Positions 11,217 through 41,981 of a DNA stretch of 51,793 bases are shown here, piece after piece. Below the pieces are notes generated by a model. That model saw only the letters and a list, made by a program, of their open reading frames with translations. It was not told where the DNA came from and did not search any database. Within the stretch, counting starts at the first letter, position 1. Every line of letters begins with the position of its first letter. The stretch covers positions 1 through 51,793 of the forward strand of contig CAJOFY010000025.1 in NCBI GenBank assembly GCA_905233945.1. Direction: 5' to 3'. A program made the translations under genes and the position numbers. The stretch comes from an uncultured bacterium (GTDB taxonomy: Bacteria > UBP6 > UBA1177).

Positions 11217-11385
11217 TCGTTCTTGTCGATTAGGTTCGTTCTTGTCGATGCCGCCAATCTTTTTCGTTATAACGTTATTCCGGTATTCCGATATACCGAC
11301 ACAGGGCGGCGAACCGATAATAACGATAATAACGTTATTCCGACGGCGCGAATCGTTATTATCGATAAGAATCGTTCTTATCGAT
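11217..11385 (+). repeat. Octamer-mosaic intergenic element, copy 1
   Basis: A 169-bp stretch made of short blocks that nearly all begin with CG. It opens with TCGTTCTTGTCGAT twice, then GCCGCC (11250-11255), then four octamers at 11265-11296: CGTTATAA, CGTTATTC, CGGTATTC, CGATATAC. Next come CGACACAG and GGCGGC (11305-11310), then a tail of CGATAATAA units, CGACGGCG, CGAAT and a TCGATAAGAA/TTCTTATCGA palindrome. The same order recurs at three other sites. It ends on the stop codon of the spoIID-like gene. The family is not recognised. Confidence 0.75.
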
Positions 11386-17133: not shown

Positions 17134-17715
17134 ATGGCTAAACTTTACTTCAGATACGGCGCCATGGGGGCAAGCAAGACATCGAACGCACTCATGGTCG
17201 AATACAACTATTTCGAACGCGGCCAGAACGCCGTCATTTTCAAACCTTCGATCGACACGCGTGACGGCATCGATATAGTCAAAAGCAGAATCGGGCTTGC
17301 AAAAAAAGCCTGTATCTTAAAACCAGAAGACAATGCTTTCGACACTATAAGCAAAATGAACGCAGCAAAAAAAATCGACTGTGTTCTGATTGACGAAGCA
17401 CAGTTTCTCACACCTGCCCAGGTCATGCAGCTCTGCCGCGTCGTTGACGAACTCAACATTCCTGTAATCGCATACGGACTGCGCACCGATTTCGCCGGAA
17501 ACCTTTTCCCGGGAAGCGAACGACTGCTTGCCATGGCCGACACCATCGAAGAAATCAAAACCGTCTGCTGGTGTTCAAAAAAAGCGATAATGAATGCCCG
17601 CGTCGTCAACGGCAAAGTCGTGAAAGTCGGGGAACAGGTTGTTCTCGGCGGCAACGAAAGCTACGTCGCGCTTTGCAGAAAGCACTGGGCCGAAGGAAAT
17701 CTCGGAAATAAATAA
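17134..17715 (+). CDS. tdk: Thymidine kinase
   Basis: This 193-residue type II thymidine kinase phosphorylates thymidine to dTMP in the salvage pathway. The P-loop region reads YGAMGASKTSNALMVEYNYF: Lys15 and Thr16 are kept, but the usual Gly before Lys is Ser. The catalytic Glu88 is in LIDEAQFL. The lasso and zinc regions are CWCSKKA and VALCRKHW, and GLRTDFAGNLFPGS matches the family. Length is typical. It is only 14 bases after a lipoprotein gene, with a weak ribosome-binding site, so probably read from that gene's transcript. An octamer-repeat island begins immediately after the stop codon. Confidence 0.93.
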   Translation: MAKLYFRYGAMGASKTSNALMVEYNYFERGQNAVIFKPSIDTRDGIDIVKSRIGLAKKACILKPEDNAFDTISKMNAAKKIDCVLIDEAQFLTPAQVMQLCRVVDELNIPVIAYGLRTDFAGNLFPGSERLLAMADTIEEIKTVCWCSKKAIMNARVVNGKVVKVGEQVVLGGNESYVALCRKHWAEGNLGNK

Positions 17716-17837
17716 TTCGTTCTTCTCGATTAAATTCGTTCTTCTCGACGCGCCGGAAATCAGGATCGTTATCCCGTCATTTCGTTATAACGTTATTCCG
17801 ACGGCGCGAACCGTTATAACGATAATAACGTTTTAAC
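17716..17837 (+). repeat. Octamer-mosaic intergenic element, copy 2
   Basis: It starts at the first base after the tdk stop codon. It has TTCGTTCTTCTCGA twice as direct repeats, then four octamers at 17767-17798: CGTTATCC, CGTCATTT, CGTTATAA, CGTTATTC. The tail follows: CGACGGCG, CGAAC, CGTTATAA, CGATAATAA. It has the same order as copies 1 and 4 but lacks the GCCGCC/GGCGGC pair around the octamers. Confidence 0.72.
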
Positions 17838-17851
17838 AACAATGGCCGAAA

Positions 17852-17880
17852 ATAAAAAAAAGCGGACCTTGCGGCCCGCT
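17852..17880 (-). terminator. Rho-independent terminator of the coiled-coil gene
   Basis: On the minus strand AGCGGGCC and GGTCCGCT form an 8-bp stem (one G-U pair) around loop GCAA. A T-run follows (A-run at 17852-17860 on plus). It starts 8 bases after the stop at 17888. Confidence 0.8.
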
Positions 17881-17887
17881 TCTGAAA

Positions 17888-20800
17888 CTATTCCAGCTCT
17901 TCGAGAGCTGTTTTCGCTTTGAGGAAGAATTCGTTTGAAGGCATCAGAGTCTTGGTGAGAAGGGTGAAAATCTCTTTTGCCTTTGCCTTGTCTGTTTCTC
18001 TCTTGCCGTAAGCTTCCCAGTACATCGATTTAGCAGTAACGTTGATAGAGTTCATACCGTTGAGCGCGATCTGGTTGTTGCGGTCGATCTTGAGAGCCTC
18101 AGCAAAAGAACGTCTTGCGCCGATGAGGTCTTTTTCGTTGAGTTTCTGGAGTCCGCTCTTCGCAAAAGCGTCAGCCTTGAGGTTGTAGATATCGGTCGAA
18201 CCTTTGACATCGACAACTTCTCTCGACTTCGTGACTTTATATTCGTCTTTGAATTTAGCACGGATCTGCTCGAGTTCCTTCTCGTCGATCTCTTTTGTTT
18301 TTTCCTCGTAGTTCTGTTCAGCCTCTTTTTTCTTTGCGATAGCTTCTTTCTTGTCGTCAAGAGCAAGCTGTTTCAGATCTTTCGAGAACTGAGCCTTCTC
18401 TTCTTTTCTCTGAGCCTCTTCCTCAGTCCACTTTTCGTTTTTCTCTTTCCATTTTGCCTGCTCGTCGGCAAGAATCGCCTGACGTTCCTCTTTTCTTCTC
18501 TGTTTTTCCTCGTTCAGTTTCTGAACTTCCTCTTCCCACTGCTCTTTCTGTCTCTTCTGAGCATCCTTGTCATCGACCTGTTTCTGAGCGTATTTGTTCT
18601 CTATCGCCTCTTTCTTTTCCTTGTATTCAGCATCGGTCTTGTCGTATTTTTCCTGCCAGGTCTTCTCGTATTTCTGGTTTTCAGTCTGGTTCTTGATCTT
18701 GATGTCATCGCTCTTGTCAGCCCATTTTGCGTTTGTTATGGCGATATTGGCATCAATACTTTCGTTTTCCTTTAAAAGGCGTTCTTTTGCATTCTTGTCC
18801 GATCTCTGCTTGTTCTCGAGATCTTTCTGTCTCTTTACCGCCTCGGCATTCCATTTAGCGGAAAGAGTTCCGCGCTCTTTTTCACGAGCCTCGATCTTGC
18901 GGTCCCTGTCTTTCTGGGCCGTTGCAATCTGGCTGTCGATGTTCTTTTTGAAAGCAGCCTTTCTCTGCTGGAAAGCTTTGAAATTCGCTTCAGCTTTTTT
19001 CTTTTCAGCCTGCTGGTTTTTCTGATATTTCGTATTGTCCTTGTTAAGTTCGTCGCTCTTCTGCGCAAGTTTCATGTCGACAGCCATGCTCTTGTTCTCG
19101 CATTCCTGCTCTACTGCAGCCATTTTCTTAGCGACGAAAGCATCTTTTCCGCCTTCGTGCTTCGAAATTTTCTTTTCCGCCGCTGCAAGCTGTTTTTTGA
19201 GAGCCGGAGTCTCTTTCTCGGCGATTTTTGCTTCGATGTCGGCCTTTTCCTTGTTCAGCTTTTCGAGCTCTTCGGTGTAAGATTTTTCAGCGTCTGCAGA
19301 AGCCGTTTCTTTGTTCTTTGCGCACTCAGCCTCGACCGTAGCACGTTCCTTTTCGATCTCTTCCTGATATTTCGACATAACTTCAGCATTTTTGAACATG
19401 TATTCTTCGGTTGCTGCGTCATATTTTTTGAGTTTTTCACGCTCTTCCGATTCCTGAGCATCGTAATCCTGAAGCTTTTTGTTGAGGTCGTCGAACTTAG
19501 CCTGATACTCTTTCTCGACTTCGACTTTGTATTTTCTGTCCTCGTCCTCGTTTTTCATCCTGATTTCTTCATTCTGAGCCATGATTTTCTTTTCGTTCTC
19601 GTCGAACTTTTCCTGCTCGCCGGTCATTTTCTTGTCGAGTTCGGAAATTTTCTCCTCATTGGCCTTTTTCTTTCCTTCAAGAGCGAGAACGGCAGCTTCC
19701 GTCTTTTTGTTGCCGGCTTCGATCTCATCGTCCTGCTTTTTGTAACGGGCTTCCTTTTCTTCTTTCATTTTCTTGAGCATATCGCCGTATTTCTTGTCGG
19801 TTTCGGCCATTTCCTTAGCCATTTCCTTCTCATATTGAGCCGAAAGAGCGTTGGAACCTTTCGTGACACCTTTTTCCCGCTGCTCAAAAAGAGTGAGCTT
19901 GTTCTCGAGCTCGACGATTTTCTGCTCGATTTCGCTGTCGTCCTTTTCCCACTGGTATTTCATATCTTTGATTTTCTTCGTGAGTTCCGCATATTCGGTA
20001 TCTTTCTGCTTCTTAGCGGCAGCGGAATCCTCGTCGAACTTTTTGAGTCTTGCTTCTCTCTCAAGAATTCTCGCATTGAGCCATGCGTCGGTCTCAGCGA
20101 TAGTTTTAGCCTTTTCCTTTCTGAGTTTTTCACGCTGTTTCTCGTTTTTGGAATGGATCACATCAACAGCGCGGATATCCTTTTCACTCGGATCAGAGTA
20201 GATGACTCTTTCAACAGCATCCTTTCTGTAAACACGGTATTTCGAGCTCGAGCCCATCTCAAGAATCGCTTCGTCAAGTTTTTCAGCCTTTGCGATAACC
20301 GGGATCGCCTCATCGTAATTTTTCGCCTTTATCGCGGCATTCGCACGCTGGACGAATTTTGCTATTTCAGCGATATTCTTCTTGAGTTCTTTCGCTTTGA
20401 CATCTCTTTCTGCAGCGCCGTCGAGAGCTTTGTCGGCAGCCTTGAGATCACCTGACGCATAAGCCTCGAGAGCCTCTTTTATAGCGTTGTCAGTGTTTTT
20501 TCCGGCAGGTTTTTTAGCGGGTCTGACCGGTTCTTCCTCTTCTTCCTCCTCCTCTTCCGGCTCGTCTTTCGCAACCGAGTGGGAAGAAAGCATCTTAGTC
20601 CATACTTTTGCGAGTTTCGACGCGATTTTCTCGGTCGAAGCCCCTTTTTCGAAGTTTACTTTCTCTTTTTCAAGATTGTTGCCTTTTCCGTCAACAAGGA
20701 AAGTTTCAACTATCGTTTTTCCGCTCTTTTTAACGAATTTCATCTTGGAAAAAATGTAAAAATCGGATTTTTTCTTCGCTTTCGAGATGAATTTTTTCTG

Positions 20801-27805: not shown

Positions 27806-27894
27806 TTGACGCCGCCAAATCTTTGTCGAAATATCGAAATTCCGAAATGTCGAAATATCGAGAGGCGGCGAATCGATAATAATGGCGGCGTCGA
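27806..27894 (+). repeat. Octamer-mosaic intergenic element, copy 3 (short form)
   Basis: The 89-bp copy begins TTGACGCCGCCA and ends TGGCGGCGTCGA, a terminal inverted repeat. Inside are four octamers at 27827-27858: CGAAATAT, CGAAATTC, CGAAATGT, CGAAATAT. They are followed by CGAGA, GGCGGCGAA and TCGATAATAA. It lacks the long tail of copies 1 and 4, and lies between the divergent gspC and exchanger genes. Confidence 0.72.
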
Positions 27895-27907: not shown

Positions 27908-27935
27908 TTGAAATCAGCTCGGTTTTCATCATAAT
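27908..27935 (+). promoter_or_regulatory. Promoter of the CaCA exchanger gene
   Basis: TTGAAA (27908-27913) and CATAAT (27930-27935) are 16 bp apart. It lies 34 bases before the ATG at 27969, which has GCGAGGG as ribosome-binding site, and just right of repeat copy 3. Confidence 0.45.
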
Positions 27936-29032: not shown

Positions 29033-29120
29033 GGAAGAGTGGCCGAGTGGTCGAAGGCGGCGGTCTTGAAAACCGTTGACGTTTACGCGTCCGTGGGTTC
29101 GAATCCTACCTCTTCCGCCA
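29033..29120 (+). tRNA. tRNA-Ser(TGA)
   Basis: Acceptor stem GGAAGAG (29033-29039) pairs with CTCTTCC (29110-29116). The anticodon loop CTTGAAA gives TGA. There is a long class II variable arm, the T-loop is GTTCGAATC, and CCA is encoded (29118-29120). Confidence 0.95.
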
Positions 29121-29128
29121 GAATATGC

Positions 29129-29221
29129 GGAGAGGTGTCCGAGAGGCCGAAGGAGCTCGCCTGCTAAGTGGGTATGGGACTAATAATTCCATCGAGGGTC
29201 CGAATCCCTCCCTCTCCGCCA
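29129..29221 (+). tRNA. tRNA-Ser(GCT)
   Basis: Acceptor GGAGAGG (29129-29135) pairs with CCTCTCC (29211-29217). The anticodon loop CTGCTAA gives GCT. A long variable arm and encoded CCA are present. It lies 8 bases after the previous tRNA. Confidence 0.95.
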
Positions 29222-29231
29222 CTTTTTTTGG

Positions 29232-29308
29232 GCGCCCATAGCCCAATTGGATAGAGCGTTTGGCTACGGACCAAAAGGCTGGAGGTTCGAGTCCTCCTGG
29301 GCGCGCCA
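29232..29308 (+). tRNA. tRNA-Arg(ACG)
   Basis: Acceptor GCGCCCA (29232-29238) pairs with TGGGCGC (29298-29304). The anticodon loop CTACGGA gives ACG, and CCA is encoded. A34 of this tRNA is the substrate that TadA deaminates to inosine; the tadA gene begins 8 bases after the CCA. Confidence 0.96.
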
Positions 29309-29316
29309 TACCGGTG

Positions 29317-29814
29317 ATGACAAGAGAAACCGAATATATGAAAATTGCGCTGGAACTTGCTGAAAAGGCAAGAGAGATGGGCGAAGTTCCCGTCGGCGCG
29401 ATAGTGGTCTTTGAAAACAGAGTAATCGGAAAAGGATTCAACAAACGGGAATCCGCCCAGTCGCCTCTTTCCCACGCGGAAATCGAGGCGATAACCGAAG
29501 CGTCGGCCTACCTTAAAAGCTGGCGGCTTGAGGATTGCGAGCTTTATGTCACTCTGGAGCCCTGCATAATGTGCAGCGGCGCAATAGTGCAGTCGCGGAT
29601 CCCAAGAGTCTACTTCGGTGCGCGTGATCCGAAAGCGGGAGGAGTGAGATCGCTCTACACGCTTCTGGAAGACGAGCGCTTGAATCACAGGGTGGAAGTT
29701 GTTGAAGGGATTCTGGCTGAAGAATCTGCCGAACTTTTATCGGGTTTCTTCCGGGAAATCAGGGAAAAGCAGAAACTTTTGAAAAAACAGTCCGGATCCG
29801 AGAATCTTGAATAA
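29317..29814 (+). CDS. tadA: tRNA-specific adenosine deaminase TadA
   Basis: The 165-residue enzyme deaminates A34 to inosine in tRNA-Arg(ACG), allowing it to read CGU, CGC and CGA. Zinc ligands are His53 (with catalytic Glu55, in SHAEIEA) and Cys83 and Cys86 (in LEPCIMCSGA). The motif FGARDPKAGGVRSLY and the C-terminal helix FFREIREKQK are typical. I start at ATG 29317 because the N-terminus then aligns with the family (TEYMKIALELAEKA). GTG 29314 and ATG 29338 are alternatives. There is no Shine-Dalgarno: the start is 8 bases after tRNA-Arg, and the stop is 3 bases before the next tRNA. The message must therefore be cut free by tRNA processing. Confidence 0.94.
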   Translation: MTRETEYMKIALELAEKAREMGEVPVGAIVVFENRVIGKGFNKRESAQSPLSHAEIEAITEASAYLKSWRLEDCELYVTLEPCIMCSGAIVQSRIPRVYFGARDPKAGGVRSLYTLLEDERLNHRVEVVEGILAEESAELLSGFFREIREKQKLLKKQSGSENLE

Positions 29815-29817
29815 CGC

Positions 29818-29909
29818 GGAGAGATGTCCGAGTGGTCGAAGGAGCCTGACTCGAAATCAGGTGCGCTCTTTACAGGGTGCCTGGGGTTCGAATCCCTATC
29901 TCTCCGCCA
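29818..29909 (+). tRNA. tRNA-Ser(CGA)
   Basis: Acceptor GGAGAGA (29818-29824) pairs with TCTCTCC (29899-29905). The anticodon loop CTCGAAA gives CGA. A long variable arm and encoded CCA are present. It starts 3 bases after the tadA stop. Confidence 0.95.
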
Positions 29910-29934
29910 TCTTTTTATCCTTTTTCCGGTTCAT

Positions 29935-30025
<91 letters not shown>

Positions 30026-30029
30026 TTGT

Positions 30030-30133
30030 GGCCGGGTGCCGTACAACAAGCCCCGCAAACCCCGTCAGGTCCGAGAGGAAGCAGCGGTAGCGGATAGTTT
30101 GTGTGTTGCGGTTTCTCCGGCCTTCCTTTTTTT
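30030..30133 (+). ncRNA. ffs: Signal recognition particle 4.5S-type RNA, with terminator T-run
   Basis: The conserved Ffh-binding hairpin is present: GTCAGGTCC, GNRA loop GAGA, then GGAAGCAGC (about 30064-30083). The ends GGCCGG (30030-30035) and CCGGCC (30117-30122) close the long rod. A CTTCCTTTTTTT run follows as terminator. The RNA proper is about 93 bases, the small bacterial type without an Alu domain. It begins 4 bases after tRNA-Ser(GGA) and is probably processed from the same transcript. Confidence 0.93.
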
Positions 30134-41821: not shown

Positions 41822-41981
41822 TGTCGGTATTATCGTTATTATCGATAAGAACGATTCGCGACGTCGGATTAACGTTATTATCGATTCGCCGCCCTGTGTC
41901 GGTATCCCGTTATACCGTTATAACATTATTCCGACATAATCTGGCGGCGTCGACAATAACGAACTTAATCGAAAAAAACGA
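41822..41981 (-). repeat. Octamer-mosaic intergenic element, copy 4
   Basis: Read on the minus strand it starts at the first base after the rpoD stop codon: TCGATTAAGTTCGTTATTG, then GACGCCGCCAGAT. Four octamers follow at 41933-41902: CGGAATAA, TGTTATAA, CGGTATAA, CGGGATAC. Then come CGACACAG, GGCGGCGAA, TCGATAATAACG, CGACGTCG, CGAAT and CGTTCTTATCGATAATAACG. A 30-base block spanning CGACACAGG and CGATAATAACG differs from copy 1 by one base, in opposite chromosomal orientation. One octamer starts TG instead of CG. Confidence 0.75.

Follow-up and report, generated by a model that had tools for sequence, protein, structure and literature searches.

What kind of element places four arrays of CGNNATNN octamers in a stretch of 51,793 nucleotides (the whole of the analysed DNA, hereafter the window) from an uncultured bacterium, and what holds their geometry constant? 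The arrays are located where a preliminary description of the window had placed them: three are exact (11265-11298, 17767-17800 and 27827-27860), and the fourth (41900-41933) has one CG changed to TG. Dinucleotide-preserving shuffles of the window contain no match with up to two mismatches allowed, and the chance expectation is zero. The features are as follows, each copy being assigned to the strand that reads the short spacer before the long one:

11250 to 11310, minus strand: copy 1, type B core, consisting of GCCGCC, a spacer, the array at 11265-11298, a spacer on the CTGTGT side, and GGCGGC
11223 to 11385, no strand assigned: arms of copy 1, made of 9-10 bp units that start with CG (TCGTTCTTGTCGAT; CGATAATAA; CGTTATTAT)
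17749 to 17808, minus strand: copy 2, type A core, consisting of a CGCGCCG stem, the array at 17767-17800 and a CGGCGCG stem, flanked by convergent genes
27810 to 27870, minus strand: copy 3 core, consisting of a CGCCGCC stem, the array at 27827-27860 and a GGCGGCG stem
41887 to 41949, plus strand: copy 4, type B core, consisting of a CGCCGCC stem, the array at 41900-41933 and a GGCGGCG stem, located 3' of rpoD

Copy 1, which is also matched by profile (contig C25, 11250-11301), consists of a type B core plus a truncated type A end (CGTTATTCCGACGGCGCGAATCGTT), located within its arms at approximately 11333-11352 by alignment of type A with type B. The CG lost from the array of copy 4 is seen in CGGTATCCCGTTATACCGTTATAACATTATTCCG. 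The flanks are overall as the preliminary description had them, except that the downstream CGACGGCG in copy 4 is CGACGTCG; the inverted repeat that it noted in copies 1, 3 and 4 does enclose the array, but copy 2, in which it was missed, has one as well, with a different sequence (GCGCCG/CGGCGC). Elsewhere in the window, tRNA genes for serine (four) and arginine (one) form a cluster with the SRP RNA (29033-30125).

The arrays belong to an undescribed repeat family of what is taken to be the genus UBA1177 of candidate phylum UBP6, the genus as which rumen UBP6 genomes have been reported (PMC7820578). Pattern and profile searches, on which all copy counts rest, find the family in each of the 15 genomes of the genus examined, with 15 to 144 profile matches per genome (as at most 150 candidates were scored in each, the highest counts are possibly lower bounds, to be read as 'at least'); in three sister genera, represented by four genomes, the profile finds no copies. 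The genome that contains the window (G000, 2.65 Mb, 99.7% complete) has 86 profile matches, which supports a multicopy element, and 27 exact occurrences per strand of CGNNATNNx4CG, versus none for a reversed-pattern control. A scan of named genomes located a type A element in UBP6_UBA1177 (L147), with an array identical to one in G000, and the assignment of the window to this genus is drawn from that relative. Literature searches found no published description of octamer arrays in either UBP6 or Bacteroidales. A plasmid origin is rejected, there being no similar DNA in PLSDB, and a viral origin likewise, the matches in viral contigs being mostly simple tandem repeats. One contig filed as viral (L176; IMG/VR contig 3300037454_000495) has a full UBP6-type element, and may be host DNA or the border of a prophage.

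The core is about 58 bp long: a GC inverted repeat, T, CG(DDATHHCG)x4 (D, not C; H, not G), RCAAGATT, and the inverted repeat again. The same order was found in 77 elements, in which a GC stem of 5-10 bp is followed by a spacer that is usually T, by CG(NNATNNCG)x4, by a spacer near RCAAGATT, and by the complementary stem. The array itself spans 34 bp, with a fixed palindromic dinucleotide every 4 bp, CG and AT by turns, and two free positions separating one from the next; the array is directionless because this pattern is its own reverse complement, and the direction of the element is set by the asymmetric spacers. In elements picked by GCCGCC...GGCGGC alone, ignoring the array, CG was found at 272 of 285 frame positions (95%) and AT at 215 of 228 (94%); 52 of the 76 elements so picked matched 17-18 of the 18 frame letters, and shuffles never matched more than 12. 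As previously described, the NN positions are variable, with one restriction: they are A, G or T when read from CG to AT on either strand, and C in only 11 of 912 cases (1%), possibly because A, G and T each have a major-groove hydrogen-bond acceptor that C does not. The proposed fixed number of units is borne out by 104 arrays, with four units in 93, three in 9 and five in 2, which also upholds the distinction from minisatellites. Nearly all arrays differ from one another (46 of 47 are distinct in G005, and 28 of 28 in G014).

The stem sequences take 27 forms with compensating changes. Swapping of flanks is the fair test of the stem, because the elements in the anatomy and compensation sets were chosen for having one: 76% of arrays have flanks that form a stem, a figure that drops to 27% once flanks are exchanged between elements and to 0.2% once they are shuffled. 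Pairing within the array is another matter. The covariation of NN positions that had been proposed as a check is absent at every register tested (75 arrays from two genomes, G005 and G014), the sole signal being a likeness of neighbouring units 8 bp apart (z = 6.75), and real arrays fold slightly worse than NN-permuted ones (z = +0.36, SE 0.10); formation of a hairpin by the array is rejected on these grounds. The exclusion of C holds for both strands, base use being nearly symmetric in G005 and G014 and mildly skewed in the non-redundant set. The symmetry of the array and its lack of covariation fit recognition of the duplex better than they fit RNA.

The copies have a history of dispersal to unrelated loci, of vertical inheritance at orthologous ones and of decay, and they can also flip their orientation where they stand. 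In types A and B, whose arms consist of 9-bp units, the resemblance between copies at unrelated loci extends over about 110 bp; for type A, the median identity at such loci is 82% over 109 bp versus 49% for DNA 100-200 bp outward, and boundaries are visible in the alignment. Both types have outer ends that resemble imperfect inverted repeats (CGTTMTTRTCGAT), delimited only approximately, and the GC inverted repeat is always near the array. The site of copy 3 (upstream of 27969) illustrates inheritance and change: the array is identical in G000, G006 and G011; the element in G012 is a reversed type B; G007 and G008 have CGNNACGN-type arrays; G009 has a G-rich array and G014 a 9-mer array; and G003 and G005 have no element, G003 apparently through a deletion, half a stem having stayed behind. 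At other orthologous sites, too, the arrays differ, and the elements often point the opposite way; one clear case of inversion in place (G000 L015 versus G003 L036) has flanks that are collinear at 96% and 90%. A notion that the array is a hypervariable barcode, derived from one pair with a changed array beside a 99% identical flank, is rejected: the yardstick was wrong because that flank is, as read from sequence, a tmRNA gene, and in a closer pair the NN positions change at about the intergenic rate. Three relatives (L029, L045 and L049) have element sequence in common with exchanged flanks, which suggests chromosome rearrangement at elements.

Among protein genes, in-frame copies were found only in the linker of a gene that reads as TonB-like (L269 427-620, L291-L293, L305-L319; all 15 genomes of the genus), through which tandem 51-bp copies of array plus spacer run in several genomes, encoding repeats like RDNEITESRNPxNDSAP. 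Seven of eight aligned orthologs have arrays, and the choice of NN letters there seems to match the intergenic arrays of the genome in question; these copies are not necessarily recent insertions.

Our tentative preference, which may well be correct, is for a MITE/REP-like dispersed element of which the array is read as duplex DNA by a putative multimeric protein. The element is accordingly described as a genus-specific, dispersed, near-palindromic repeat of the MITE/REP/RPE type, with a scaffold that encloses the 34-bp array. A pattern rather than a sequence is seemingly read, because copies keep the blueprint while the letters differ in almost every copy. The frame of the array would be kept because the putative multimeric protein, possibly the mobilizing enzyme, binds the double-stranded array in four 8-bp steps, making its contacts with CG and AT while accepting every NN except C on the CG-to-AT strand; the GC inverted repeat may act as a hairpin (in single-stranded DNA or a cruciform) or supply paired end sites when the element moves or inverts. 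From the directly observed scaffold, frame, unit number, compensating stem, subfamily dispersal, inheritance and inversion, we infer the duplex recognition by a multimeric protein and the mobility by means of some enzyme. Points in favour of the MITE-like element are the presence of the family throughout the genus and its absence from the sister genera, the frame in elements picked irrespective of the array, the dependence of the stem on an array's own flanks, its compensating changes, the lack of NN covariation, the two-stranded exclusion of C, the bounded identity of type A, the inversion, and the in-frame tandem copies. Points against it are that many copies are old and common to several species; that the proposed search for empty sites found no precise one, and no target-site duplication, among species-level relatives; and that the search for a partner enzyme, be it transposase or recombinase, yielded none: Y1_Tnp (PF01797) has no match in G000 and a match in only one of the 15 genomes of the genus, with matches obtained in control genomes.

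Dispersed palindromic repeats are already known in bacteria, including REP/REPIN sequences (PMC3116915), MITEs and Rickettsia palindromic elements, or RPEs (PMC10969869). The UBP6 elements resemble REPs and REPINs (PMC3116915) in being short, GC-rich, extragenic inverted repeats of many copies, with predicted hairpins and several subfamilies per genome. REPs have a conserved sequence and a RAYT (Y1) transposase, however, whereas the UBP6 copies have a common rule, with types A and B alone conserved in sequence; membership among REPINs fails because G000 has no RAYT and the sequence is not conserved, and a RAYT-driven REPIN is rejected since the Y1 transposase is absent from G000. Like bacterial MITEs (PMC10969869), the elements are non-coding and short, with apparent imperfect inverted-repeat ends (types A and B) and dispersed copies that are nearly alike. 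The initial view that they are unlike REP or MITE DNA holds only in part, since the dispersed, near-palindromic copies of subfamilies A and B are MITE-like. Neither a target-site duplication, among the species-level relatives compared, nor a parent transposon came to light, which would set the elements apart from MITEs. To our knowledge, MITEs do not have a central array composed of four degenerate units. RPEs (PMC10969869) are also a palindromic family of one genus, found both between genes and in frame inside protein genes; the UBP6 in-frame copies differ in being tandem and confined to one (TonB-like) gene family, and the elements in being 58-110 bp long with a fixed-unit array. The novelty therefore lies in copies that have a rule in common rather than a sequence.

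Rumen Prevotella and other Bacteroidales (L039-L155) have unstemmed CGNNATNN arrays, many of which adjoin a start codon on its upstream side or a stop codon on its downstream side. These have the same CG/AT frame, 8-bp step, and T before and A after the array, but they contain 4-16 units, are enclosed by a GC stem in 5 of 107 cases versus 73 of 96 in UBP6, and have C next to AT in 10% of cases versus 1%. G000 itself has a five-unit CGNNATNN array with no GC stem that precedes a gene start (L019, 4001-4042).

The UBP6 scaffold also encloses other classes of array, namely CGTNACGN x4 and 9-mers of TTAAGGACC or TAGGGAGTT x4-5 (G007, G008, G011, G014, G005 and G000). A broader proposal, which we hold to be conceivable but doubtful, is that one scaffold (GC clamp plus RCAAGATT spacer) accepts interchangeable arrays with a fixed count of degenerate, dyad-symmetric 8- or 9-bp units (CGDDATHH x4, CGTNACGN x4, or TTAAGGACC-like 9-mers x4-5), each class being read as duplex by a multimeric protein specific to it; elements that are related would then switch recognition class at one chromosomal site.

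The array could alternatively be a host site that is not mobile: a binding array, recurring throughout the chromosome, on which a host protein (chromosome-organizing, or a MetJ-like repressor) assembles cooperatively, 8 bp at a time, kept by selection and occasionally copied by recombination. MetJ operators consist of tandem 8-bp met boxes that are dyad-symmetric and of which adjacent units are bound cooperatively; the met box is one sequence, AGACGTCT. The likeness to the UBP6 array is in the geometry only (8-bp step and dyad-symmetric units), and the AGACGTCT box misfits the UBP6 frame, which leaves NN free and does not allow G immediately after AT. A host site is consistent with the fixed unit number and frame, the dyad symmetry, and vertical retention of an identical array at some sites. 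It also agrees with the gene context: the 60 placed elements represent every intergenic arrangement (21 convergent, 15 divergent and 24 tandem, single cases of which may be wrong because the gene calls are plain open reading frames), with no significant bias in direction. The spread of types A and B with long arms as units, the tandem copies within a coding gene, the switching of array class between species at one site and the frequent loss all speak against it, and we judge it rather unlikely. The host site and the MITE-like element have the duplex-binding step in common, and the suggestions of a mobile element and of a protein-binding array may both be true together.

A structured RNA, in which the GC stem closes a large loop in a 5' leader, 3' end or terminator, is improbable. 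The compensating changes in the stem, its presence in 71 of 77 predicted folds, and the location of some copies directly before ribosome-binding sites would be expected of such an RNA. The array, however, lacks any pairing signal and folds slightly worse than permuted arrays, and a reverse-complement-symmetric rule is unexpected for RNA. Nor is the earlier idea of a structured 3' RNA supported by the placement of copies between divergent as well as tandem genes, with 16 same-sense and 8 antisense elements in tandem contexts and with copy 3 just upstream of a promoter-like sequence (TTGAAA-16-CATAAT, 27908-27935) of a divergent gene pair. A terminator is disfavoured both by gene context and by a separate terminator hairpin (at 17712-17888) that lies beside copy 2 and is kept in species without the element; and Rfam at the gathering score matches only the tRNAs and the SRP RNA in the window, with no RNA family at the elements. 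Replication slippage or expansion of short repeats into functionless low-complexity 8-mers is very unlikely, for although it could account for the resemblance of neighbouring units, a shift by one unit between L029 and L045, and the 4-16 units of Bacteroidales arrays with the same frame, it is at odds with the four units of nearly all UBP6 arrays and with their GC clamp, and fails to account for CG and AT being conserved next to NN positions that are free but for the exclusion of C.

Known bacterial repeats are recognized by a shared sequence, whereas the UBP6 copies share a geometry of unit length, unit number, palindromic dinucleotides and clamp. A nearly free sequence under a fixed geometry suggests that the DNA is recognized in an unusual way, which can be searched for directly. 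The family is a marker of a single genus in an uncultured rumen phylum, and an accompanying question is why Bacteroidales of the same habitat have arrays with the same CG/AT frame.
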